In this document: positions 13,502 through 62,394 of the stretch, piece after piece
How the letters are laid out: every line of letters begins with the position of its first letter
Position numbering within the stretch: position 1 is the stretch's first letter
From: Stakelama flava
GTDB taxonomy: Bacteria > Pseudomonadota > Alphaproteobacteria > Sphingomonadales > Sphingomonadaceae
Direction: 5' to 3'
Assembly: GCF_019351405.1 (NCBI RefSeq)
Contig: NZ_JAHWZX010000001.1
Location: forward strand, 310,001-374,000
DNA length: 64,000 bases
Position numbers and translations under genes: made by a program
Notes under the pieces: model-generated
Told to the model about the DNA's origin: nothing
Seen by the model: the letters and a program-made list of their open reading frames with translations, nothing else
Databases searched by the model: none

Positions 13502-14521
13502 CTACCGATATCCGGGGGACGCATAGCCGACGCCCACTGATGCTTCCGGACAGAAATCACCCCCTGGTGGTGTGCCTTCCCGGAACTTGGCCGGCCCCCC
13601 CGCACCGTCGCTCAGACGAGGGTACAGATCGGGATACCACACAAATGGACTTATGTTGTCGCTCGAATACACCCCCCGGCCGGCTTCATAGCCTGGGGCG
13701 TAACAAGTCACTCGATCGCGAACCGTTCGATCCGGGCCAGGAGCAATCCACACATCCCTGACCGTGATCGGATGAGACGTATTGTTCCATTGGTCAATGC
13801 TGTCTGAAAACCAGTATGCCGAACCATAGCCGCTATTAGGCGCGGCATTTTCAAGGCAATGCGCATTCGATTCTACGATAATAATTTCACCTGTTATCGC
13901 TGCCTGCGCTGACAGGAACATACCCTGATAGTTGGTCGTGAACGTCGTACGATGTGAATACAGACTGCGGATGGGCTGACCCAGTTGCAGAAAGTCTGGA
14001 TGAAGACCCGCATTATCCCCCCGAAGCCCATCTCCCCAGCAATTCTGGATGTAAATGTCAGGATTGGTGCCCGATCCGCCCCCCGCTGAAAAACAGTCCG
14101 AAGGTTGCCGAATCAAATTTACGGCGATTCCTTCAAAATAAGCGCTGCCGCTCAAACCATACCATTGATGCGCACGCGATCCGCCGCTGGGATTATAGTC
14201 AACCCTACCCCCGATCTGGCGTACGTTTCGACCCGTTGTAAGGTTAAAACCACCAACGCGTGGTGATTCACTTGGAATGAAATTAATATCTGTGTTCGTT
14301 GATGCGCCCGATGGGTCACCTTGATATCCCGTTCCAAGATTGACGACGATCGGATTGGAAAGCGCTGGTGGCGCGAACAAAAGACGCTCGGCGTATCGAT
14401 GCCCGCTAACCGGTTGCAACAAGTCCGCATTTTCAAGAGCATTGATAAACTGCGCTTTTGTTGCAGCGTATCCCAGATCGTCAAGTGCCGATACGACTTG
14501 CGCTTCTGTCGGTGTAGGCAT
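13502..14521 (-). CDS. Orphan beta-helix-like protein in lower-GC insertion by tRNA-Val
   Basis: A 339-residue protein of unknown function. The first 40 residues look helical (QVVSALDDLGYAATKAQF), ending LLQPVSG. The rest is rich in Gly, Asn, Ser and aromatics with short strands, e.g. NPDIYIQNCWGDGLRGDNAG then HPDFLQLG, and looks like a beta-helix or beta-sandwich. No signal peptide is seen. A gaaggatcc ribosome site precedes the ATG. The gene has clearly lower GC and different codon use from its neighbours, and it lies 3' of tRNA-Val on the same strand. It resembles the gene at 54934-56109 in N-terminal pattern and an H-x-D-x-(L/I)-Q motif. It may be a phage-like or polysaccharide-related cargo gene; that is inference. 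Confidence 0.6.
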   Translation of the reverse strand: MPTPTEAQVVSALDDLGYAATKAQFINALENADLLQPVSGHRYAERLLFAPPALSNPIVVNLGTGYQGDPSGASTNTDINFIPSESPRVGGFNLTTGRNVRQIGGRVDYNPSGGSRAHQWYGLSGSAYFEGIAVNLIRQPSDCFSAGGGSGTNPDIYIQNCWGDGLRGDNAGLHPDFLQLGQPIRSLYSHRTTFTTNYQGMFLSAQAAITGEIIIVESNAHCLENAAPNSGYGSAYWFSDSIDQWNNTSHPITVRDVWIAPGPDRTVRDRVTCYAPGYEAGRGVYSSDNISPFVWYPDLYPRLSDGAGGPAKFREGTPPGGDFCPEASVGVGYASPGYR

Positions 14522-14921
14522 GGATTCGGATCCTTCTTTAGCGAGGCAAGCAATCGTGAAATTGCCAATCCAAACTACACAAATGCAAACTATCCTTAAA
14601 GCTGGCCAACCTCGGACATATCTCTTTTATCGTCCATTTGGTTCTTCGACTGACCAAAGGTTTGCCACTGCATCACAACGCCACTGTAAAATACAGCGTC
14701 GTGGAATAAGGTCGTAAAAACTTCATGGAGCATCGCTTGCCAAGCCAACCGAAGTCAATGCGATCGGCGAATTTCGAAGCGTCGAGCGGGCATCCAACGA
14801 GATTCTTCGGGACATGGAGGAATTGGTGCCAGATACTTTGCACCGGTCCGGCACCGGAGCCGGACTCCCCAACATCCAACCCGCGGAGGTGAAAATGTCA
14901 GGGTAGACCGGCCTTAGAAGG
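14522..14921. other. Gene-poor lower-GC stretch between orphan gene and tRNA-Val
   Basis: 400 bases of AT-richer DNA with no convincing complete gene. On the plus strand 14718-14906 stays open after a TAA and reads plausibly as the C-terminal end of a protein (NEILRDMEELVPDTLHRSG, then stop TAG), but there is no start codon or ribosome site, so it may be the remnant of a gene lost on integration. The sequence ggccttagaag (14910-14920), just outside the tRNA 3' end, recurs at 54852. Confidence 0.4.
14718..14906 (+). pseudogene. Possible truncated 3' gene remnant
   Basis: An open stretch of 62 codons with protein-like composition, e.g. EVNAIGEFRSVERASNEILR, ending at TAG 14904-14906, 16 bases before the tRNA-Val 3' end. 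It has no ATG/GTG/TTG start in a sensible position and is preceded in frame by TAA (14715-14717). It may be the tail of a mobile-element gene. The opposite strand is also open here (14673-14879), so the reading is tentative. Confidence 0.25.
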
Positions 14922-14996
14922 TGGTGGGCGCGGCTGGGATTGAACCAGCGACCCCTGCGGTGTGAACACAGTGCTCTACCACTGAGCTACGCGCCC
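14922..14996 (-). tRNA. tRNA-Val (CAC anticodon)
   Basis: Minus-strand cloverleaf with acceptor GGGCGCG/CGCGCCC, discriminator A, encoded CCA, D-arm GCTCAGTGGTAGAGC, anticodon arm CTGTG-TTCACAC-CGCAG (anticodon CAC) and T-arm with GGTTCAATCC. It lies just downstream of hupB, an order common in alphaproteobacteria, and marks the edge of a lower-GC insertion. Confidence 0.95.
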
Positions 14997-24177: not shown

Positions 24178-25821
24178 TCAGCCTTCCTTCTTGGCAGCCG
24201 CTTTCTTGGCCGGAGCCTTTTTGGCGGCGGGCTTCTTCTCGCCCTCGCTGTCGTCAGACTTCTTGGCGGGCGCCTTTTTGGCTGCGGCTTTCTTGGCCGG
24301 GGCCTTCTTTTCGGCAGCAGGCTCCTCGTCCGTATCAGCCTTGGCCGCGGCCTTTTTGGCGGGCGCCTTTTTGGCCGCAGGCTTTTCCTCCGACTTGGCT
24401 TCATCAGCCTTGTCATCGGTCTTCTTCGCAGTGGCCTTTTTGGCGGGCGCTTTCTTCTTGGCGGCGGGCTTTGCCTTTTCGGCCTCTGCCTCGTCCTCAG
24501 CCTCGATCGCGGCTTCCAGTTCCTCGCGAGTTACTTCGCGATCGGTGATTTCCGCCTTTTCGAACAGGAAGTCGACGACCTTGTCCTCGTAAAGCGGTGC
24601 GCGAAGCTGAGCGGCAGCCATCGGCTCCTGCTGAACATACTGAATGAACCGTTCACGGTCTTCCGGGCCGTATTGCTGCGCCGCCTGCATGATCAGGCGG
24701 CTCATTTCCTGCTGCGTGACCTCGACGCCGTTTTCCTGACCGATTTCGGAAAGCAGCAGGCCCAGGCGAACCCGGCGCTCGGCGATCGCGCGATATTCGT
24801 CGCGGTCGTTTTCCAGTTCCTTCTTCGCCGCTTCGGGATCTTCCTCATGGCTCGCTTCATGCTCAAGCTGGTGCCAGATCTGCTGGAACTCCTGCTCGAC
24901 CATGGTCGGCGGGACGGGGAAATCATGCCCGGCGGCAAGCTGATCGAGCAGCTTGCGCTTCATATGCGTACGGGTAAGGCCGTTCAGTTCCTGCTCGACC
25001 TGCCCCTTCATCAGTTCGCGAAGCTGCTCCAGGCTTTCCAGCCCCAGATTCTTGGCGAAGTCATCGTCGACCTTCGTTTCCCCGGCGACCTTCACCGCCT
25101 TGATGGTCAGGTCGAACGTCGCTTCCTTGCCGGCCAGTTCCTTCGCGCCATAATCTTCGGGGAAGGTGACGGTAATCGTCTTTTCCTCGCCCGCCTTGAC
25201 GCCGACGATCTGATCTTCAAAGCCGGGGATCAGGCGGCCCGATCCGATCTCGACCGCCATATCCTCACCGGTGCCGCCGTCGAACGCGGTGCCGTCCACC
25301 TTGCCGACGAAATCCATGACGACCTGGTCGCCTTCCTTCGCCTTGCGCGTCTTGGGTGCATCCTCGAACTGCTTCTGCTGGCCGGCAAGCGTTTCGAGCT
25401 GTTCGTCGATCACGCTTTCATCGGCGGGAACGGTCAGGCGCTCCAGCGTCAGCCCGTCGATCGACGGGGTCGGGACATCGGGCAGCACTTCCAGTTCGAC
25501 CGCGATCTCCGCATCCTTGCCGGGTTCGTAATCGTTCTTCAGTTCGACCGAAGGCTGCATCGCCGGACGCAGCTTATGCTCGGCGATCAGCGAATCGACG
25601 CCTTCGCGGATGCTGTTGTTCAACGCGTCCTGGCTCAGCGCCTCGCCGTGCATTTTGCGGATCAGGTTGGCGGGCACCTTGCCGGGCCGGAAACCGGGCA
25701 TACGGACCTGCGGCGCGACACGCTTCACTTCGGCATCGACTTTCGCATCGATGTCCTTGGCGGTGATCGTCATCGTATAGGCGCGTTTCAGGCCTTCGTT
25801 CAACGTCTCGACAGTCTGCAT
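24178..25821 (-). CDS. tig: Trigger factor with lysine/alanine-rich C-terminal extension
   Basis: Ribosome-bound chaperone and prolyl isomerase. The N-terminal ribosome-binding loop has the signature VRMPGFRPGKVP, followed by an FKBP-type domain (GDQVVMDFVGKVDG) and a helical chaperone domain. Normal trigger factors are about 430-460 residues; this one is 547 because about 110 residues of repeated PAKKAPAKKAAAKK-type sequence with acidic spacers (e.g. ADTDEEPAAEKK) are added, resembling a histone-H1 tail. Start MQTVETLNEGLKR matches the family; ATG 25848 with aggga upstream is an alternative. Confidence 0.94.
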   Translation of the reverse strand: MQTVETLNEGLKRAYTMTITAKDIDAKVDAEVKRVAPQVRMPGFRPGKVPANLIRKMHGEALSQDALNNSIREGVDSLIAEHKLRPAMQPSVELKNDYEPGKDAEIAVELEVLPDVPTPSIDGLTLERLTVPADESVIDEQLETLAGQQKQFEDAPKTRKAKEGDQVVMDFVGKVDGTAFDGGTGEDMAVEIGSGRLIPGFEDQIVGVKAGEEKTITVTFPEDYGAKELAGKEATFDLTIKAVKVAGETKVDDDFAKNLGLESLEQLRELMKGQVEQELNGLTRTHMKRKLLDQLAAGHDFPVPPTMVEQEFQQIWHQLEHEASHEEDPEAAKKELENDRDEYRAIAERRVRLGLLLSEIGQENGVEVTQQEMSRLIMQAAQQYGPEDRERFIQYVQQEPMAAAQLRAPLYEDKVVDFLFEKAEITDREVTREELEAAIEAEDEAEAEKAKPAAKKKAPAKKATAKKTDDKADEAKSEEKPAAKKAPAKKAAAKADTDEEPAAEKKAPAKKAAAKKAPAKKSDDSEGEKKPAAKKAPAKKAAAKKEG

Positions 25822-25889
25822 TCCCACGCTTTCAAAATAGAATTTCAAGGATCCCTATTGGCTGGCATCCCGATCACAGGGGCGGAAAC

Positions 25890-50741: not shown

Positions 50742-52196
50742 CTATGCCGCGCCGCGCGCGATCGCCAGCATCGCGTCGAGATCGAGATGCTTTTCGATCG
50801 CCGCGGCGATTTCATCCAGAGCACAATCGATATCGGCGGCATGGTCCGGCCCCGTCGCATCCGCGCCGATCCGCGACAGCCATGCCGCGCGCTGCGCCGC
50901 TTCGCCCAGCAAGCCGTGAATATAGCTTCCCGCGACCAGGCCGTCCGCGCGCATCGCGCCATCGGCGCCACCGCCGGACAGCTGCCCCAGCGGCCGGTCG
51001 GCATCGCAGCCGGTGGTCCGACCAAGATGGATTTCATAGCCGCTGAACGCCGCCCCCAGCGCAACGCCGCGCACCTGGCGCAGCGTCTTGTCGCCGGTCA
51101 GCACCGTTTCCACATCGAGCAGCCCCAGCCCGGCGACCTCGCCCGCTGGCCCCTCCACCCCGTCAGGATCGGCGATTTGCCGGCCCAGCATCTGATATCC
51201 GCCGCACAGGCCAAGCACCGGGCGGCGCTTGCGCACATGCGCCAGGATATCGACATCCCACCCTTGCGCACGGATGAAGCGCATATCGGCGATGATTGTC
51301 TTCGATCCGGCAAGAATGATCATTGCCGCATCGGGGATCGCCTCGCCCGGCGGCACCATCACCACATCGATCGCCGGTTCCAGCCGCAGCGGATCAAGAT
51401 CATCGAAATTGGCGATGCGCGGCGTCACCGGGCAGGCAATTACGATCCGGTCCGATGCAGCGCTATGAGTGCGCTCCAATATCACCGCATCCTCGCTGGG
51501 CAATCGCCGGGCGGGCGGCAGCCAGGGAAGCATGCCCAGCGCCGCCCAGCCGGTACGCTGAACGATTGCGGCCATTCCGTCCGCGAACAACGCGGGATCG
51601 CCGCGAAACTTGTTGATTACGAAACCGCGGATCATCGCCGCATCGTCCGGCGCGATTACCGCATGGGTGCCGACCAGCGATGCGATCACGCCGCCGCGGT
51701 CGATATCGCCGATCAGAACGACCGGGACCTGCGCAGCGCGCGCGAACCCCATATTGGCGATGTCGCCCGCACGCAGGTTGATTTCCGCCGGAGATCCCGC
51801 CCCTTCGACCACCACGATATCGGCCTGTTCGGCAAGCGCGCGATAGCTTTGCAGCACCGCCGTCATCAGTTCCCGCCGCCCCTCGCGCCAATTCGCCGAG
51901 CCAAGCGTGCCGCGAACCCGGCCATGCACCACCAGTTGCGACGTGCGATCTCCCTGCGGCTTCAACAGCACGGGGTTCATATCCACGTCGGGGGGCACGC
52001 GACACGCGATTGCCTGAGTCGCCTGCGCACGGCCGATTTCTCCGCCATCGGCGGTAACGGCGGCGTTGTTGCTCATATTCTGCGGTTTGAACGGACGCAC
52101 GCTCAGGCCGCGATTGGCGAGCGCACGGCATATCCCGGCGACCAGCACCGATTTGCCGACATCGGAACCGGTGCCCTGAAACATCAAAGCGCCCAT
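50742..52196 (-). CDS. cobQ: Cobyric acid synthase CobQ
   Basis: A 484-residue glutamine amidotransferase that amidates four carboxyls of the corrin ring. The N-terminal ATP-binding domain has [20 protein letters not shown] and [14 protein letters not shown]; the C-terminal glutaminase domain has the nucleophile Cys in [13 protein letters not shown] and the His in YIHGL. gcgggggaatcat precedes ATG 52196, which lies inside the 3' end of cobD (13-base overlap), so the two are coupled. Confidence 0.95.
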
Positions 52197-53122
52197 ATGA
52201 TTCCCCCCGCAATCGCCCATAACAGCGCACAGGCGCGAACATAGACGGCAAGCGCTCGCTTCAGATCGCCCGCCCCTGCGCTGCGGCCCTCTCCACCGAT
52301 CCACGGCTTGTCATTCGCTACGCCGTCATAGGCGATCGGCCCGGTGAGCGCGACGCCCAGCGCGCCCGCCATCGCCGCTTCCGGCCATCCGGCATTGGGC
52401 GATGCATGGCGGGCGTGATCGCGCAGCATCACGCGCCACCCTCCGGGCGCAGCGATGCACAACACCACCCCGGCAACCCGGGCGGGGACCAGGTTGAAAA
52501 GGTCGTCGCACCGCGCCGCAGCCCAGCCAAAGGCGCGCCACGGTTCCTCATAATGGCCGATCAGGCTGTCGGCAGTGTTGATCGCCTTATATGCCCAAAG
52601 CCCCGGCAGCCCTGCGAAAAGGAGCCATGCCAGCGGCGCGACCACGCCATCGCAGAAACTTTCGGCCAGGCTTTCGATCGCGGCGCGCGCGATGCCAGCG
52701 CGATCAAGCGCCGCGACATCGCGGCCGACGATCCGCGACACGGCAATTCGCGCGCCGTCGATATCGTCGCTCGCCAGCGCTCGCCAGACCGGGCGAACAT
52801 GGTCGTACAGGCTGCGCTGGGCAAGGCCGGGCCAGGCGAAGAGCGAAGCCGCAACCCAGCCCCAACGGCCGAACAGCGCATAGACCAGCGTCTCGATCGC
52901 CAACCCCGCCGCGATGGCGATGCTGAGGAGCGCGACCACCGTAACGATGCCTGCCGCCCTGCGCCGGGCGAAGCTTCGCTGCGGCCGGTTGCCGTGCCGT
53001 TCGCACCAGCTGATGAAGCGCGCAAAGCCGCCTACCGGATGTCCCACCAGCCGATACAGCGGCGCAGGCCAGCCGATCGTCGCATCGAGCACCAGCGCAA
53101 TAACCGCGACCGGCCTAATCAT
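52184..53122 (-). CDS. cobD: Adenosylcobinamide-phosphate synthase CobD/CbiB
   Basis: A 312-residue membrane protein attaching (R)-1-amino-2-propanol phosphate to adenosylcobyric acid. Family segments include [20 protein letters not shown] near the start, [14 protein letters not shown] and [13 protein letters not shown], and [17 protein letters not shown] near the end; about four hydrophobic helices are seen. It overlaps the cobC stop by 8 bases and cobQ start by 13. Confidence 0.95.
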
Positions 53123-54137
53123 CGGCAAGCGCCGCTTCCAATCGCGCAAAACCTGCTGCGTCGGGTGGCAGACCGAAGCGCAACCAGTGCGGGTGGCAGG
53201 TGAACGGACGCACCAGAATGCCGCGCCGCGCCAGCTTGTCGAACAGCCCGTCGCTCGCGGCGGGATGTTCCGCCAGCCGGAACAGCGGGCATTCGCCGCG
53301 CACCGTCATGCCATGGCGCGCGAGCAGCATATCCAGCGCATCCGCATCGCTCACAAGCCGCTGCCGGGTGGCTGCGATCCAGCGCGCATCGCGATAGGCG
53401 GCGGTGCCCCATGCGATTGCTTCGGCAGAAACGGGCCAGTCGCCGGTCATCGCACGCACCCGCGCAAGGATGGCGGGCGGTGCCACCACGAACCCCAGCC
53501 GCAGCCCGGCAAGGCCGAAAAACTTGCCGAATGAGCGTAAGACGATAACCGGCGCGGCGTCGGTCAGATGCGACAATATGCTGATGCCCGGCTGCGCATC
53601 GGCAAATGCTTCATCGACAATCAGCCACCCCCCGGCGCTTGCCTTGGCGCGGGAGAACGACAGCATTCGCGCTACGTCGCATACCCGCCCGTCGGGGTTG
53701 TTCGGATTGGCGAGCAGCAGCGTCCCGCCGCTTCGCGCCGCTTCCTTCACTGCGCCGTACGGCACCCGCCGCGCCGCAACCTCCCCCTGCGTGCCATAGC
53801 CCGGCGTGACCGCGCATAGCGGCTGCGGCAAGCCAAGCACAGGCAACATCCTCAACCCCATTTCGCTTCCCGGAAGTGCCGCAACGCGCTCCGCCGCAAC
53901 GCCGAAATGCGCCGCTGCCGCCGCCTCCAGTTCGGCGAGCGCCTGGCGGTCGGGCAACGACGCGTGATCTATGGTTAGTCCCGCATCCGGCTTCCAGGGA
54001 AGCGGATTGATACCAGTCGACAGGTCCAGCCACGGCAGCGGCGCGTGCGGATACAGCCGCCGCGCCGCGTCCATCCGGCCGCCATGATACGAAAAATATG
54101 CCGATTCCGCTTGCATCATAGCGTCCGCCATCGCCAT
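53115..54137 (-). CDS. cobC: Threonine-phosphate decarboxylase-like aminotransferase (CobC)
   Basis: A 340-residue PLP enzyme of fold type I that makes the aminopropanol phosphate linker for cobalamin. Marks: WLDLSTGINPLPW, LPGSEMGLRMLP, ANPNNPDGRV, VDEAFAD and the PLP Lys in RSFGKFFGLAGLRLGF. It is the first gene of the cobC-cobD-cobQ operon and is divergent from cobU, 27 bases away. No cobalamin riboswitch is visible in the short gap. Confidence 0.93.
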   Translation of the reverse strand: MAMADAMMQAESAYFSYHGGRMDAARRLYPHAPLPWLDLSTGINPLPWKPDAGLTIDHASLPDRQALAELEAAAAAHFGVAAERVAALPGSEMGLRMLPVLGLPQPLCAVTPGYGTQGEVAARRVPYGAVKEAARSGGTLLLANPNNPDGRVCDVARMLSFSRAKASAGGWLIVDEAFADAQPGISILSHLTDAAPVIVLRSFGKFFGLAGLRLGFVVAPPAILARVRAMTGDWPVSAEAIAWGTAAYRDARWIAATRQRLVSDADALDMLLARHGMTVRGECPLFRLAEHPAASDGLFDKLARRGILVRPFTCHPHWLRFGLPPDAAGFARLEAALADD

Positions 54138-54164
54138 TCAGCGGCACACAGGCAAGCCGGAAGC

Positions 54165-54695
54165 ATGATGACGACACAGCCGAGCACGTTTCTGATCCTT
54201 GGCGGCGCGCGCTCCGGCAAGAGCCGTCATGCCCAGCGCATCGCACAGGCCGATGGCGGCGAAAGGGTGTTCGTGGCGACTGCGCAAGCCTTTGACGACG
54301 AAATGCGCGACCGCATCGCCCGACACCGTGCCGATCGCGACTCAAGCTGGCACACAGTCGAAGCGCCGCTCGCGCTCGTCGATGCGATCCGTTCGGAAGA
54401 TGCGCCAGGCCGGGTGCTGCTGGTCGATTGCCTGACGCTGTGGCTGTCGAACCTGCTGCTCGCCGGACACGATGTCGCCGCCGAAAGCGATGCGCTGGTC
54501 GCCGCAGTGCCCCGTCTTTGTGCACGGCTCATTCTGGTAAGCAACGAGGTCGGCCTCAGCGTCGTACCCGACAATGCGCTCGCCCGCCGGTTCCGGGATG
54601 CGGCTGGCATGCTAAACCAGCGGCTTGCCCAAATCTGCGACTCCACCGAATTCATCGTCGCCGGCCACCCCATCCGCCTAAACCGCGCGGAATAG
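54165..54695 (+). CDS. cobU: Adenosylcobinamide kinase/guanylyltransferase CobU
   Basis: A 176-residue bifunctional enzyme of cobalamin nucleotide-loop assembly. The P-loop GGARSGKSRHAQ, the catalytic His region RHRADRDSSWHTVEAP and LLVDCLTLWLSNLL are typical of CobU/CobP. Two ATGs overlap at the start (54165 and 54168). It is divergent from cobC. Confidence 0.95.
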   Translation: MMTTQPSTFLILGGARSGKSRHAQRIAQADGGERVFVATAQAFDDEMRDRIARHRADRDSSWHTVEAPLALVDAIRSEDAPGRVLLVDCLTLWLSNLLLAGHDVAAESDALVAAVPRLCARLILVSNEVGLSVVPDNALARRFRDAAGMLNQRLAQICDSTEFIVAGHPIRLNRAE

Positions 54696-54933
54696 CGGCG
54701 AAAACCTCAATTAACGGCGCGACGGTGTGTGTGTTGGGAGCGGATTAGATCAATATTTTTCGCTGCAAGAGCTTTCCAACCAGCTCGTTTATATGCACCC
54801 CAATATGCAACCTAAGCTACTAGGTCTAACCCGAAAGTTTAGTCGCGGCCGGGCCTTAGAAGCTTGGATCGCCGTACCCACGCCTTAATCGACATCCGTC
54901 GACAATCCGCGATCCGCTAACGTTTCATATGCG
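54696..54933. other. AT-richer gene-free stretch at the edge of the second insertion
   Basis: 238 bases of visibly lower GC with no gene, terminator or clear repeat, except ggccttagaag (54852-54862), which also occurs just outside tRNA-Val at 14910. It may hold the outer junction of an integrated piece of DNA, but no copy of the tRNA-Arg 3' end was found here by eye. Confidence 0.35.
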
Positions 54934-56109
54934 TCACCGCTGCGGCAGTTGAGGAACCGGGACAGCCGAACCGTCATCCGCCCACGTATCGCCATCAAGA
55001 GTGATCGTATCGGCATATTGAGTGGCCAGCGAATAAGGGCCATGATCGGCATACCCCGAATAATCGCGCGAGATCCGGTTTCCGCCGATCACGATTCCGG
55101 TATTAACCGCGCCGGGATTTGTGAGCGTCCCATTCTGCGTGATGAACTGTATGGGATAGTTGTTCGATCCCGCGACATAGTTACGCTGGAAAGCGCCGGT
55201 ATCGGAGGCCTGTCCTGTATCGGGCCTCACTATCACCGCACTCGTGCAATTCGCTGAAGCTGGCATGCCCAGCCAGTTTTCTTGGACCACGCCGTAGCCG
55301 CGAACAAACTGAATCCCATCCATGTGCGGATAGCGGACGTCGTTCGGTGCGCCATAATACGGGCCATATGCTGCAGCGTCCCACGCCAGCATGTCATGGA
55401 TATAGTTGCGTTCGATTACTGCGCCGATCGGCGCCTTGATGGCATCGTCACCGCAAGCGGCTATGTCGCAATGGTCGACCACAAGGCCAGTCGCATAAGA
55501 TGCGCCACCGATGCCGCTATAGGCACGTTCGCCTGCTCCATCGATTTGAATATGATGAATATGCGCGTTGCTCGCTGCCGCCTCGACCATGACGAGCTGA
55601 CGATGCATCGCATTCAGCGCCGCACGCTTGTCCTGCGCGGTCTGCCCTGACGGCCATCCATTCGCATCAACGTCGTAAACATAGGCTTCCGGGTCGATCG
55701 CAGCGCCGAGTACCGCACAGTCGCGAAGTTCAATCCCGGACGCGGTGATATCGATCCAACCAATGACCCGTTTACCCACCAGCGCGTCGGCATCAGCCTG
55801 CGTCGCAATCGTATAAGGCGCCGCCTCGATCGTATCAGTGATTGGAACACGCGATCCGCATGCGACCCGAAACCATGTCTCGAGTTCATGCAGTGGGCGT
55901 TCGAACGCGCTTTCCCATGTCAGCGGCTGTACCAAGTTGATCAGGCGTAAACCGTCGATCACCGTCGTTGCACTAGAAAATAGTGCAATCGCTTCGGCAT
56001 CGTTGAGTCCAGCAGCAGACAATGCTGCGTCGACCGCCGAGGGGCTGATAGATTCCTGCCCGTTATCCCCGCTGTCGGCGCTCATCATCTGGTTAGATAC
56101 GTCCACCAT
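54934..56109 (-). CDS. Orphan right-handed beta-helix-like protein beside tRNA-Arg
   Basis: A 391-residue protein of unknown function. After an acidic head, residues 20-65 look helical ([20 protein letters not shown]) and end LVQPLTW. The rest has beta-helix rungs such as [53 protein letters not shown] and [14 protein letters not shown]-x-D-x-I-Q with N-x-I turns recalls polysaccharide lyases/epimerases and phage tailspikes. No signal peptide is seen. aaggaaccgaaag gives the start, 43 bases from the tRNA-Arg 3' end on the same strand. GC is lower than around it. It resembles 13502-14521 in N-terminal pattern. Confidence 0.7.
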
Positions 56110-56152
56110 CTTTCGGTTCCTTTGTCATCCGTCCGCACCATCTGGCGAGCAG

Positions 56153-56229
56153 TGGTGTCCCGGGAGGGATTCGAACCCCCGACCTACGGATTAGGAATCC
56201 GGCGCTCTATCCTCCTGAGCTACCGGGAC
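56153..56229 (-). tRNA. tRNA-Arg (CCT anticodon)
   Basis: A 77-base cloverleaf on the minus strand: acceptor GTCCCGG/CCGGGAC, discriminator A, encoded CCA, D-arm GCTCAGGAGGATAGAGC, anticodon arm CCGGA-TTCCTAA-TCCGT (anticodon CCT) and T-arm with GGTTCGAATCC. Genes for DUF1178, a nitrilase and glutaredoxin lie upstream on the same strand, and the beta-helix gene follows. Confidence 0.95.
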
Positions 56230-56264
56230 ACAGCCGGGGTTGGTAGTGCGCGCGCCTGCGCCGG

Positions 56265-56726
56265 TCAATTGCGCGCCGAAGGCGGGACCACCGGGAAGGG
56301 CAGCGGCGCGACAGCGATCCCATCGTCCAGCAATTCGCGCGCCTGCTCGATCGTCGCCTCACCATGGATGGCCGCCCTGTCTTCCTCGCCATGGTGCATC
56401 GCGCGGGCACGTTCGGTGAAAGCGCTGCCGACCCATTGCGATCCCTCCAGCGCCTTTTGCTGCGCCTGTGCCAGCGCTGCCATGGCCTGCTTGACCGCTT
56501 CGGGCATGGCTTCGCCTTTTTCCGCCGGTGGCTGCGCGGCAGTCAGTTCCCGGCGATTGCCCTTTGTCGCGATGTTCGGCGCCATCAGCGCCTTTTCCAC
56601 GCTCGCATCGCCGCAGATCGGACAGCGGATCAGGCCATCGGCCTTTTGCTCGGCATAGGCGCTGCTCGATGCGAACCAGCTTTCGAACACATGGCCCGCG
56701 CCGCATTTGAGGTCGAATACGATCAT
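56265..56726 (-). CDS. DUF1178 zinc-ribbon-like protein
   Basis: A 153-residue protein beginning MIVFDLKCGAGHVFESWFAS with a second cysteine pair in IRCPICGDASVEKALMAPNI: the DUF1178 signature, probably binding one zinc. The function is unknown. Its ATG overlaps the nitrilase stop as ATGA. The group comF-grxC-nitrilase-DUF1178 is common in alphaproteobacteria. Confidence 0.92.
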   Translation of the reverse strand: MIVFDLKCGAGHVFESWFASSSAYAEQKADGLIRCPICGDASVEKALMAPNIATKGNRRELTAAQPPAEKGEAMPEAVKQAMAALAQAQQKALEGSQWVGSAFTERARAMHHGEEDRAAIHGEATIEQARELLDDGIAVAPLPFPVVPPSARN

Positions 56727-57547
56727 GGCGCGCGCTCCACCTGCGGAATCGCGCGGCGATTGGCGAACGACGGTAATTGCCCGCGCACCTCCGCAATGCG
56801 CGCGGGATCGATTTCGGCAAAGCCCATCCCGGCGGGCTCGCCCATGTCGAGCAACACCTCGCCCCAGGGATCGACCACCATCGAATGGCCCCAGGTGGCG
56901 CGACCGTCTTCATGCTCGCCGGTCTGCGCCGCAGCGATCACGAACGCGCTCGATTCGATCGCGCGGGCGCGAAGCAGGGTTTCCCAATGCGCCTTGCCGG
57001 TAGGGCGAGTGAACGCCGACGGCACGGCAAGCACCGTTGCCCCGGCATCGCTCAACGCGCGATACAGGTCGGGAAACCGAAGATCGTAACATATCGACAG
57101 GCCAAGACAGCCGAGCGGTGTATCGACCACCACCGCGCGTTCGCCAGGGGCATAGACCGCCGATTCGCGCCAACGTTCCCCAGTGGCAAGATCGACGTCG
57201 AACAAATGCAGCTTGTCGTAGCGCGCGCGAATATTGCCGTCGCTGTCGATCACGAAGCTGCGATTGGCGCGTCGGCCATCGTCACGCTTCAGCGCCAGCG
57301 AACCCAGCGCGACCCAGATGCCGTGGCGCCGCGCTTCACGGCACGCGGCGGACAGGACGATATCCTCTCCTTCCCCGGCGATATGCGCCCCAGCGCGGTC
57401 ACGATCGCTGTCGAGCAATCCCGTCATTTCGGGGGTAAACAGCATTGCAGCGCCGTCAGCTGCGGCCTCGCCAATCGCCCGGACGATGGTATCGGCGTTC
57501 GCCGCCGGGTCGATCCCCGACGTCATCTGCGCCAGCGCGACCTTCAT
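56723..57547 (-). CDS. Carbon-nitrogen hydrolase (Nit1-like amidase)
   Basis: A 274-residue enzyme of the nitrilase superfamily with the Glu-Lys-Cys triad: Glu in LFTPEMTG, Lys in YDKLHLFDVDL, Cys in LGLSICYDLRFPDL. The sequence fits the Nit1 branch, which repairs deaminated glutathione; a glutaredoxin gene directly upstream fits that idea. Both ends overlap neighbours by 4 bases (ATGA). Confidence 0.9.
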   Translation of the reverse strand: MKVALAQMTSGIDPAANADTIVRAIGEAAADGAAMLFTPEMTGLLDSDRDRAGAHIAGEGEDIVLSAACREARRHGIWVALGSLALKRDDGRRANRSFVIDSDGNIRARYDKLHLFDVDLATGERWRESAVYAPGERAVVVDTPLGCLGLSICYDLRFPDLYRALSDAGATVLAVPSAFTRPTGKAHWETLLRARAIESSAFVIAAAQTGEHEDGRATWGHSMVVDPWGEVLLDMGEPAGMGFAEIDPARIAEVRGQLPSFANRRAIPQVERAP

Positions 57548-57801
57548 CCGTTGAGCAGCGGGTCGACGCCCCCTTTGCGGTCCAGCGCGGCAAGATCGTC
57601 CGACCCGCCGATATGCCGATCGTCGATGAATATCTGCGGCACCGTCATGCCGCCGTTCGCGCGGTCGATCATCTCGGCACGCTTCGCCTGATCCATGGTG
57701 ATGTCATATTCGACATATTCGGCCCCCTTTTCGTCCAGCAGCGCTTTCGCGCGAGTGCAGAAGGGGCAGAACGCCTTGGTATAGATTTCGACCTTTGCCA
57801 T
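57544..57801 (-). CDS. grxC: Glutaredoxin 3
   Basis: An 85-residue dithiol glutaredoxin with active site C12PFC15 (YTKAFCPFCTRAKALL), the cis-Pro motif MTVPQIF and the GSH-binding IGGSDDL. It reduces disulfides with glutathione. It overlaps the nitrilase start (ATGA) and follows comF after 31 bases. Confidence 0.96.
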   Translation of the reverse strand: MAKVEIYTKAFCPFCTRAKALLDEKGAEYVEYDITMDQAKRAEMIDRANGGMTVPQIFIDDRHIGGSDDLAALDRKGGVDPLLNG

Positions 57802-57832
57802 GGGTGACAGGTGTGGCTCCCCCGCCCGATTG

Positions 57833-58567
57833 TCAATCGCCGCTTTCTTCCGGCAACACGCGTGCGAACGCAGCGATGGCGACGTTTTTCGCGCCCGCCC
57901 GCTTCAGCACGCGGATGCAGGCATCGCTCGTCGCGCCGCTCGTATAGACATCGTCGACCAGCAGGATCGCCTTTCCGGCAATGCGTTCGGTCCAGCGCGG
58001 ATGAACGGCGAATGCGCCCGCCAGCACCGTGTGACGCGCCTTCGGCCCCATGCCGCGCAGAACCGGGGTGCGCCGCGTTCGCACCAATGCGTCGCAGACG
58101 AACGGAATATCGCATTGTCGCGCCAGCCCCTGCGCGATCAGCGCCGCCTGATTGAAGCCTCGCGACCATATTCGCGACGTATGAAGCGGCACCGGAACGA
58201 TCAGGTCGGCGGTTCGCGGGAGGGTTCGCGCGATCAGCCGGGCGGCGGTTTCGGCATGCGCGGTGCGCCGGCCATATTTCAGCTTCAGCATGATCGCGCG
58301 CGATACCTCGCCATAGGCGACCGCGGCATGAATACCGTCATGCAGCGGCGGTTCTGCCATGCATGCGGCGCATTCGGTGCCCGGCCCGCGATCATATTCG
58401 AACGGCAGGTTGCACCGCGCGCACGCCGGCTCGCCCGGAAAGTCCAGCGCGGACCAGCAGGCGGCGCAAAGCCGGTGATCCGCCTCCGTAATCGCGCCGC
58501 AGCTCGGGCAGCGTGGCGGCAGGGCGAAGGCGACCGCTTCGCGAAGGGTTTGCACCGCAAGGTTCAC
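57833..58567 (-). CDS. ComF-family phosphoribosyltransferase-like protein
   Basis: A 244-residue protein with an N-terminal zinc-finger region holding four CxxC pairs (PPRCPSCGA, LCAACW, CARCN, CAACM) and a C-terminal PRTase fold with ILLVDDVYTSGATSDACIRV. Its role in DNA uptake is known for ComF of competent bacteria; here it is unproved. GTG 58567 is chosen as start (aagggg upstream, close spacing); GTG 58552 is an alternative. First gene of the comF-grxC-nitrilase-DUF1178 operon. Confidence 0.9.
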   Translation of the reverse strand: MNLAVQTLREAVAFALPPRCPSCGAITEADHRLCAACWSALDFPGEPACARCNLPFEYDRGPGTECAACMAEPPLHDGIHAAVAYGEVSRAIMLKLKYGRRTAHAETAARLIARTLPRTADLIVPVPLHTSRIWSRGFNQAALIAQGLARQCDIPFVCDALVRTRRTPVLRGMGPKARHTVLAGAFAVHPRWTERIAGKAILLVDDVYTSGATSDACIRVLKRAGAKNVAIAAFARVLPEESGD

Positions 58568-58610
58568 GCCCCCTTGTCGCCGTAGCGACGAAGCGGCACA
58601 AGCGCTTCGC

Positions 58611-59447
58611 GTGAGTGCCCCCCGGATATTTTCACCCCTTGCCCGCCGCCAGCGCCGGAATCGCGCCGCGCAGGGCTTTTCCGAATTCCGCTTTCTCCAC
58701 GATTTCATGCGCGAAGGCATTGAGGAGCGGCTGAGCGCGGTAAAGCGCGATTTTTCCGATATTCTTGACCTTGGCTGCTGGGATGCGAGCTTTTCGCCGC
58801 CGCCGAGCGTGCGAATCACCCGTTGCGATCCCGGCTATCGCTTCGCGAATGGCGCGCACGGCGTTCAGGCGGACGAGGATCGCCTTCCTTTTGCCGACGC
58901 CGCTTTCGATCTGGTGGTGGCGATCGGCACGCTGGACACGGTGAACGACCTTCCCGGCGCGTTGACGCTGATCCGCCGCGCGCTGCGCCCCGATGGCTTG
59001 TTCCTTGGCGCATTTACGGGGGCGGGCACGCTGGCGACGCTTCGCCGCGTTCTGATCCAGGCAGAAAGCGATCGCCCTGCCGCACGGATCCATCCGCAAA
59101 TCGACGTCCAGTCGGCGGGCGACCTGCTCGCCCGCGCGGGGTTCGCACTTCCGGTCGCCGATACCGAAAGCCTGTCGGTACGCTATCGCGACATTTTTTC
59201 GCTGTTCCGCGATCTGCGCGGCATGGCGGCGACCAATGTGATGACGCAGCGCAGTCCGCTGTCGCGCGCCACGCTGGCAGCAGCGGCGCAGGCCTTCGCC
59301 GCGCTTGGCGATGCCGACGGACGCACCACCGAACGGTTCGAGGTTATCACCGTCACTGGCTGGGCACCCGACCCGTCGCAGCCCAAACCCGCGCGGCGCG
59401 GCAGCGCCTCCGCCTCGCTCGCCGAAGCGTTGAAGCCGAAAGACTGA
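58611..59447 (+). CDS. SAM-dependent methyltransferase (NDUFAF5/BioC-like)
   Basis: A 278-residue class I methyltransferase. Motif I reads ILDLGCWDASF, followed by an acidic loop [20 protein letters not shown] and the post-motif DLPGALTLIRRALRPDGLFL. The head (SPLARRQRRNRAAQGFSEFR) is the pattern of the BioC/NDUFAF5-like group found divergent from comF in alphaproteobacteria. The substrate is unknown; a GTG start at 58611 is used. Confidence 0.85.
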   Translation: MSAPRIFSPLARRQRRNRAAQGFSEFRFLHDFMREGIEERLSAVKRDFSDILDLGCWDASFSPPPSVRITRCDPGYRFANGAHGVQADEDRLPFADAAFDLVVAIGTLDTVNDLPGALTLIRRALRPDGLFLGAFTGAGTLATLRRVLIQAESDRPAARIHPQIDVQSAGDLLARAGFALPVADTESLSVRYRDIFSLFRDLRGMAATNVMTQRSPLSRATLAAAAQAFAALGDADGRTTERFEVITVTGWAPDPSQPKPARRGSASASLAEALKPKD

Positions 59448-59458
59448 AGCGCGGGCGT

Positions 59459-59887
59459 TCAGATCAGCGCGTCGAGCATCCCGATCAGCGGCCGGTCGGC
59501 CGGTGGCATGTCGAGCGAAAACAGCGCGGGCGCGGGCAGCCATTGCAGCTCGCTGGCATGAAGCGCGCGCGGCACGCCGCGCCATTTGCGCAGGACATAG
59601 AGCAACAGCAGCAGATGTTTCTCGCCCAGCGGCTCGCTGGCAAAGGTCGCGGGGGCGAGGCACGATGCCTCGGTCTCTATCCCCAATTCCTCGCGCAGTT
59701 CGCGGACCAACGCCGCCTCCGGCATCTCCCCGGCTTCAGGCTTGCCGCCGGGAAATTCCCACAGCCCCGCCATCGGCTTTCCCGGCGGTCGTCGCTGCAC
59801 CAGCACCCGGCCATCGGCATCGACCATCGCCGCGGCAACGACCAGAAACGGCATGGCGGAGGAGGCGGCGCGTTGATCGGTCAGCAT
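59459..59887 (-). CDS. mutT: 8-oxo-dGTP diphosphatase MutT
   Basis: A 142-residue Nudix hydrolase that removes oxidised dGTP. The Nudix box at residues 47-70 fits G-x5-E-x7-REUxEExGU (GGKPEAGEMPEAALVRELRE followed by ELGI), and GLWEFPGGK precedes it as in MutT. Start at 59887; a later ATG has no ribosome site. Convergent with the methyltransferase. Confidence 0.9.
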   Translation of the reverse strand: MLTDQRAASSAMPFLVVAAAMVDADGRVLVQRRPPGKPMAGLWEFPGGKPEAGEMPEAALVRELREELGIETEASCLAPATFASEPLGEKHLLLLLYVLRKWRGVPRALHASELQWLPAPALFSLDMPPADRPLIGMLDALI

Positions 59888-61488: not shown

Positions 61489-62394
61489 TTAGGACGGACG
61501 TGACGGAACGTCAACGAGCGGATGGCGCTGATTGACCAGATCGACCAGCCTGCGGCTGTCGACATGGGTGTAGATTTCGGTCGTCGCGATATCGGCATGG
61601 CCGAGCATCGACTGCAGCGCGCGCAAATCCGCCCCGCCCTCCAACAAATGCGTGGCAAAGGCGTGGCGCAGCACATGCGGGCTGACCCGATCGGGGGGAA
61701 TGCCTGCTTCAGCCGCCAGCGCCTTCATCAACTGATACAGCCGAATCCGCGTGAGATGCTTGCGCCCCGATGGAAACAGAAAGGCACTGGTGGGCGGCAC
61801 ATGGTCGCGCCAGATCGCCACCGCCGCGCGCGCGCGATCCGAAATCGGGACCAGCCGTTCGCGCCCGCCCTTGCCCGACAGGATCAGGAAAGGCCGATCG
61901 GACGCGATCGCGTTGCGTGGCAGCGATACCAGCTCGCTCGCGCGCAGACCCGATCCGTAGAGCAGCTCGACCAGCGCAGCGAGGCGCAGGTCGCGTGGAT
62001 CGGGCGGAATGCGCGCCTGCCGCTCGGCAATCGCGGCGAACAGCTTTTCGACATCGCCCGTCGACAGCACCTTCGGCAATCGTCGCGCGGCTCCGGGCCG
62101 CGGCAGGAAGCGGCCCGGATCGTCGGCGCGATGCCCCTCCTCCGCCAGAAAGGCGAAGAAGCGACGCAATGTCGATGCCTTGCGCGAAACCGTCGAGCGG
62201 GCAAGCGTGCCCCACCCTTCCGCCAATCGCTGGACCGCCGCTTCGTCGGCATCGGCAAGGCCACCCGACAGCGCGTCGGACGCCAGCCGCAAATCGGTGG
62301 CATAGGCGGCGATAGTGTTGCGCGACGCGCCCGCCTCGGCTGCCATCATTTCCAGAAAGCGCTCGATCAGCGCACCATCGCCGCTGGCGGTCAA
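61489..62394 (-). CDS. xerD: Tyrosine recombinase XerD
   Basis: A 301-residue recombinase for chromosome dimer resolution at dif. The N-terminal SAM-like domain starts [19 protein letters not shown]; the catalytic set is Arg ([13 protein letters not shown]), Lys ([11 protein letters not shown]), [12 protein letters not shown], His in LGHADI and Tyr in EIYTHVD. The start is a TTG that overlaps the upstream stop as TTGA. Chromosomal housekeeping type, not an integrase of a mobile element. Confidence 0.95.

Follow-up and report, generated by a model that had tools for sequence, protein, structure and literature searches.

A gene of 391 codons that stands by itself beside tRNA-Arg in Stakelama flava most likely comes from a bacterial virus, left behind or borrowed, rather than being an ordinary bacterial gene. 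What we directly observe is a gene of foreign composition that G478, the genome of the nearest species compared, lacks at the corresponding site, and that has an N-terminal domain in common with phage tail-type proteins. The explanation that we favor, and consider probable, is that it encodes a phage receptor-binding protein (a tailspike or short tail fiber) and is the terminal leftover of a lost prophage at tRNA-Arg. Such a prophage would have adjoined the 3' end of tRNA-Arg, integrase end first, with the focal gene in last place and pointing outward to cobU; everything in it but this gene would since have been lost. The small N-terminal domain would attach the protein to the virion, and the body, probably a right-handed beta-helix, would bind or cut surface polysaccharide; an export signal is not needed by such proteins, which are released when the cell lyses or as part of virions. 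Incomplete prophages are reported to shed genes for replication, packaging, and lysis and to be enriched in tail fiber genes (PMC7744054).

A lone foreign gene beside tRNA-Arg

The window (the whole stretch of 64,000 nucleotides that was analysed) contains the following features at this locus.

54934..56109, minus strand: focal gene, candidate phage tailspike-like protein of 391 aa (open reading frame list, composition, N-domain matches)
56118..56123, minus strand: Shine-Dalgarno-like AAAGGA, 8 bases 5' of the ATG
56153..56229, minus strand: tRNA-Arg (CCT); the match to G478 picks up again at its 3' end, 56153
54045..54695, plus strand: cobU open reading frame, a host gene flanking the focal gene at its far end; the match to G478 stops at 54679
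56265..56726, minus strand: DUF1178 gene, conserved host neighbor upstream of the tRNA

The frame of 391 codons runs on the minus strand from an ATG at 56109 to a stop at 54934, and 43 bases separate it from tRNA-Arg (CCT) on the same strand. The first-pass annotation had both the length and this position correct, but the span it assigned (54934-56152) includes the 43-base spacer as well as the gene, which ends at 56109. The GC content of the gene is 0.575, its GC3 is 0.607, and its codon adaptation index (CAI, a host-codon score) is 0.548; in a reference set that we picked from the window, 19 genes presumed to be the host's own, GC3 averages 0.747 (minimum, 0.687) and CAI 0.672 (minimum, 0.573). 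GC is 0.570 across 55001-56000, and the earlier description of the gene as lying in lower-GC DNA thus agrees with GC, GC3, and codon score alike. Because there is an open frame, a preceding AAAGGA, and a GC3 and codon score that are low relative to the host genes, we conclude that the gene is real, alone, and compositionally foreign. A search for sigma-70-like promoters at 54680-56800 found none, a weakly informative result where 1.0 is expected by chance.

On one flank of the gene is cobU and on the other are DUF1178 and a carbon-nitrogen hydrolase, followed by an open reading frame that appears glutaredoxin-like by eye, in keeping with the placement originally proposed, between cobalamin genes and a conserved operon. 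By DUF1178 the nearest species is that of G478 (77% identity, the best among 290 other matching genomes of 295 searched). Homology between G478 and the window extends over 50758-54679 (74%) and 56153-59438 (77%), the second match beginning exactly at the last base of tRNA-Arg. Between these blocks the window carries the focal gene alone. The comparison of the cobU-DUF1178 interval that had been suggested was run against G478, which at the same site lacks the focal gene and has 4.4 kb with three others that by eye resemble cobO, a gene for a TonB receptor, and one for an aminotransferase. That homology resumes at the tRNA end could merely reflect unconserved DNA beside a conserved tRNA. We note that S. 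flava has its cobO-like gene on another contig (G000:C23:237662-238263; L124, L125) instead of after cobU as in G478, and that it may be shifted or diverged, because its two matching pieces sit in different frames.

Thirty loci around DUF1178 in the genus (that of S. flava included) end close to the tRNA, with even the S. flava locus stopping short of cobU. In most of the relatives viewed, the open reading frames after tRNA-Arg differ (by eye), and the junction therefore changes often; in one relative (L052), a frame that reads by eye as the start of an integrase ends 385 bases from the tRNA. Between cobU and DUF1178 of the window there are no phage genes other than the focal gene and no integrase; of 12 matches to PF00589 in the S. 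flava genome, one is in the window (61555-62070), outside this interval. A short-word search gave no attachment-site scar at tRNA-Arg, the best repeat toward the cobU side being 9 bases, and the flanks of the focal gene have no match above chance to the G478 phage regions or to other phage loci. Elsewhere in the genome, contigs C15 and C16 each carry two integrase-family matches at the same spacing and with identical scores, one of each pair having an internal TAG, and reflect either duplication of a mobile element or redundancy in the assembly.

Measured against tRNA-integrated prophage remnants as a class, the locus has the atypical composition and the absence from G478, but has neither a repeat of the tRNA on the far side nor integrase or phage genes. 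The missing scar, flanks free of further phage genes, and the varying frames after tRNA-Arg could instead reflect transfer of the single gene by recombination or on a small element at the tRNA, with a whole prophage never having been there. We regard this as unlikely: it leaves unexplained why, at two sites in the window (see below), a gene reads outward from a tRNA in the manner of the last gene of a prophage.

An N-terminal domain common to phage tail-type proteins

The part of the protein that ties it to phages is near its start.

55930..56064, minus strand: N-terminal domain, residues 16-60, common to phage tail-type proteins (alignments, profiles, shuffles)

The match between the focal protein and G478 first surfaced in a genus search, with an E value of 0.02 for G478 (L016/L065, focal residues 17-62), as one of the weak matches, and turned out to be to an N-domain relative. 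Focal residues 17-60 align with the N-terminus of a 355-aa G478 gene with a Smith-Waterman score of 78 and 36% identity over 44 residues; shuffled N-termini scored 23 on average, and neither 2,000 nor 5,000 shuffles yielded a score of 78. Unrelated proteins give matches to the focal body with pairwise scores above that of this alignment. A profile of the focal and G478 sequences (A1) gave matches at E ≤0.1 in 43 of 295 genus genomes, both inputs included, and among nine further loci viewed the motif is at the protein start in three and absent from that position in six. The three positive loci (L077, L078, and L079, from three other species, G408, G659, and G483), of which L105, L107, and L106 are larger pieces, encode proteins that begin with a GIGIG stretch.

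The surroundings of these genes are phage-like to varying degrees. In L105, a tail-fiber protein (phrog_2712, 3.9e-30) is 2 kb from the N-domain gene; in L107, an integrase and a weak tail-protein match are near it, as is an M23 peptidase protein whose best matches among PHROGs are endolysins, with tape-measure proteins lower down. L106 shares the N-domain gene and several neighboring frames with L107 and was judged by that likeness alone; its N-domain protein has no match in PHROGs. A four-row profile confirmed a viral contig, L108, as a further carrier, in which a 91-aa protein is followed by the N-domain protein and, 0.8 kb on, by a terminase (phrog_2, 1.9e-30). With the same profile, 14 of 298 genomes of the family gave matches at E ≤0.01; the focal gene aside, those listed span 16-28 of the 41 profile positions, and one was viewed. 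Used alone as a query against phage records, the N-domain gave one match at E 10 with the focal letters and none with those of L107.

A model built from L105, L107, and L108, omitting the focal and G478 sequences, recovers the focal protein at E 2.4e-6 among 6,461 open reading frames, directly after the input proteins and their copies; G478 is next (4.7e-6), and the next unrelated frame scores 9e-4. The focal N-terminus scores 30.3 bits with this model and the best of 20,000 shuffles 13.1, none scoring as high. This is a strong test but not a fully independent one, because L105 to L108 were found with profiles containing the focal sequence. Behind the N-domain the bodies differ, with an SGNH-like region visible by eye in L105 and the others also distinct from the focal body. 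The L105 gene (L105:5826-9065, minus strand) encodes a phage-type protein of 1,079 aa with the N-domain, the SGNH-hydrolase-like stretch, a virion-protein match (phrog_10356), and a subthreshold Calx-beta match.

From these alignments, the N-domain is common to phage tail-type proteins with different bodies. The L105-L108 proteins resemble the focal protein in having it near the start, with phage genes close by in L105, L107, and L108, but they have other bodies, and those of L105, L106, and L107 start with the glycine-rich GIGIG that the focal protein lacks. Receptor-binding proteins and depolymerases of Klebsiella phages are reported to be modular, with N-terminal structural anchors and exchangeable C-terminal modules (PMC8262889). 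A shared N-domain with differing bodies would, by analogy, be the pattern of phage receptor-binding proteins, and we infer that the domain anchors the protein to the virion. Unlike the Klebsiella-type depolymerases, the focal protein has no match in PHROGs, the PDB, or 50,697 phage records, and an enzymatic activity is putative.

The G478 gene (355 aa; L068:9505-10572, minus strand) provides the clearest setting for the domain. It is in a prophage of ∼42 kb bounded by 69-bp repeats that are 97% identical (L068:9286-9354 and L133:11176-11244). Both repeats are on contig C5, and the L133 copy overlaps the first 22 bases of tRNA-Gln; phages that target tRNAs more often use the 3' part. An integrase adjoins tRNA-Gln (phrog_1, 7e-27; no Pfam match at 0.001), and a head-tail connector and a capsid protein are also between the repeats. 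Before the 355-aa gene are a 746-aa spike-like protein (tail fiber phrog_23059, 5e-6), an endolysin (phrog_315), a frame that appears lipoprotein-like by eye, and a 106-aa frame. The 355-aa gene is the last of the prophage, 150 bases from the repeat with its stop codon outward, and past the repeat end are genes that by eye belong to the host.

The focal gene, too, points away from its tRNA, toward the far flank. The G478 prophage is, however, on the 5' side of tRNA-Gln, whereas both window genes (see below) are on the 3' sides of their tRNAs, and the geometry is therefore alike only in gene direction and position. Four spike-like G478 genes that were tested have GC3 values of 0.59-0.70 and a composition like that of the focal gene; two other genes of the prophage, those for the connector (0.80) and capsid (0.70), are host-like in third positions. 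The 355-aa gene thus shares with the focal gene the N-domain, a lower GC content, and outward reading at an element end, but differs in that integrase, capsid, and lysis genes accompany it in a prophage and in that its body is related to that of a second window gene, with no similarity to the focal body found.

A second lone gene at tRNA-Val

The second gene, which is likely the first of the two orphans of the first-pass annotation, is also close to a tRNA.

13502..14521, minus strand: sister lone gene, 339 aa, with relatives in two phage regions of G478
14922..14996, minus strand: tRNA-Val (CAC), 400 bases before the sister gene on the same strand; homology with G478 resumes at 14922

The sister protein is 65-68% identical to the products of two G478 genes. 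One is the 355-aa terminal prophage gene, and the other follows transglycosylase-like and spanin-like open reading frames in a second phage region (IMGVR_UViG_2795385468_000003), 232 bases from a contig end. Weaker matches are present in four further genomes of the genus, and relatives of the sister-gene body are carried by Microcystis phages Mae-JY30 and Mwe-JY08 (PP438422.1 and PP395640.1; E 4e-14 and 4e-6), neither of which has a match to the focal protein. The GC3 of the sister gene is 0.50. An H-x-D-x-x-Q motif is invariant across the five members of the sister family that were aligned, and these five relatives also have a YxSPGY C-terminus in common. A profile of the family aligned weakly with the N-terminal part alone of the focal protein (probability, 17%; P 0.0014), and gave three matches in the PDB at E 0.83 or worse.

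At the tRNA-Val site G478 has other DNA, and a short-word search gave no attachment scar there, the best repeat being 8 bases. The 11-mer GGCCTTAGAAG occurs both at 54852-54862, in the gap between cobU and the focal gene, and at 14910-14920, by the 3' end of tRNA-Val; with an E value of about 0.1, this match is possibly chance. There are four tRNAs in the window, of which two (tRNA-Arg and tRNA-Val) precede lone spike-like genes, and tRNA-Leu precedes trigger factor. The trigger factor frame (24178-25848, minus strand) starts ∼40 bases after tRNA-Leu and has a C-terminal extension like the histone-H1-like HC2, below the Pfam cutoff.

Two intact lone frames ∼40 kb apart, each downstream of a tRNA on the same strand and each preceded by a Shine-Dalgarno-like stretch, raise the question as to whether selection has retained the focal gene and its sister as phage spike genes that help the host. 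The product could be a polysaccharide enzyme released by lysis or a decoy against infection by related phages, transcribed with the tRNA or with the DUF1178 operon. Recent arrival accounts for the intact frames equally well, no second allele was found, and the search at 54680-56800 offered no promoter, and we give this explanation little weight, marginally below that of single-gene transfer.

The body of the protein and the place of lone spike-like genes

The rest of the focal protein is less easily placed.

54937..55854, minus strand: C-terminal body, residues 86-391, putative right-handed beta-helix (fold read by eye)
55309..55326, minus strand: H-M-D-G-I-Q motif, residues 262-267 (focal sequence)

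The focal protein matches no family in Pfam or NCBIfam at E values up to 10, beta-helix, lyase, and epimerase models included, and nothing in the PDB (E up to 10), PHROGs (E up to 1), or the phage and plasmid records. Pattern scans of viral contigs did not find the body; these scans use exact short peptide patterns only and miss distant relatives. Their sole match in genome contigs, L001, is in a frame that by eye is response-regulator-like. Five of 397 family genomes have a match at E ≤0.01 and 62 of 295 genus genomes one at E ≤1, with S. flava itself among both; its own gene aside, these matches are short and local, and no full-length relative was found in either set. Eleven weak-match loci were translated (L005-L013, L020, and L021), and none is beta-helix- or phage-protein-like; by eye they are dehydrogenase-, Hfq-, protease-, metallo-beta-lactamase-, or amidohydrolase-like or have unclear frames. 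Among the genomes searched, the focal gene is found only in S. flava: none of the 294 other genus genomes gave a full-length relative, and its codon use is abnormal, the opposite of a gene present in all relatives with normal codon use, which is what would have counted against the original proposal.

The beta-helix rungs proposed earlier fared less well. By eye one can make out rungs (IERNYI, VQENWL, IGGNRI, and HMDGIQ), but the database searches lend them no match, and single-sequence AlphaFold2 models have mean pLDDT values of 30.1 for the whole protein and 30.5 for its last 302 residues. A count of rung motifs in the body gave a P value of 0.026, which proves nothing, because one of 11 host proteins equals it and beta-helix controls are not outstanding. 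We infer nonetheless that the body is probably a right-handed beta-helix. Compared with tailspikes and receptor-binding proteins as a class, the focal protein has the N-terminal module but is not located inside a phage or prophage.

The putative rungs and the H-x-D-x-I-Q motif, as read by eye, would also suit a lyase or epimerase of the host that acts on polysaccharide and leaves the cell by an unusual route. This is very improbable, given the lack of a Pfam or NCBIfam match, the phage association of the N-domain, the absence of a full-length relative from the 294 other genus genomes, and the lack of an export signal. On the last point the original annotation was borne out, at least by a crude test of charge and hydropathy: there is no K or R in residues 1-15, and the best 15-residue hydropathy near the start is 1.47, at residue 40.

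That annotation had offered the gene as either tailspike-like or contact-dependent cargo. The tailspike half is strengthened by the N-domain and by the location of the closest domain relative in a prophage; the other half is not sustained. A lone foreign gene with beta-helix-like repeats (by eye) might be cargo of the CDI or filamentous-haemagglutinin type, but the protein has 391 residues only and no signal sequence. By eye, there is no transporter- or immunity-like partner among open reading frames of at least 80 aa at 52000-59500, including the interval between cobU and the tRNA, and neither the export signal nor the TpsB-like transporter or immunity gene of CDI and two-partner secretion systems is seen, so that this origin is very improbable. 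Finally, although one antisense frame has only four stops over the same stretch, as might be expected of a chance open frame in GC-rich DNA, it is scarcely credible that this is not a gene, with the annotated frame best in host-like codon score (0.548, versus 0.360-0.505 in the other five frames) and having a ribosome-binding site and the N-domain similarity near its N-terminus.

With the gene read as a terminal prophage leftover encoding a receptor-binding protein, a lone gene that could not be annotated becomes a testable phage spike candidate, and a short N-terminal domain, for which the focal protein has no Pfam, PHROGs, or NCBIfam match, ties together proteins of several prophage regions and one viral contig. 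We offer as speculation, and as a rather unlikely one, that bacteria of this group repeatedly keep only the terminal spike genes of tRNA prophages, here twice at a distance of ∼40 kb, as working tRNA-linked units of one gene, serving for instance as lysis-released polysaccharide enzymes or phage-blocking decoys, and that the N-domain of ∼45 residues is an unlisted plug by which phages of these hosts swap spike bodies. Should such lone spike genes beside tRNAs be retained on purpose, they would document past infections in a simple form and perhaps serve in defense or nutrition.
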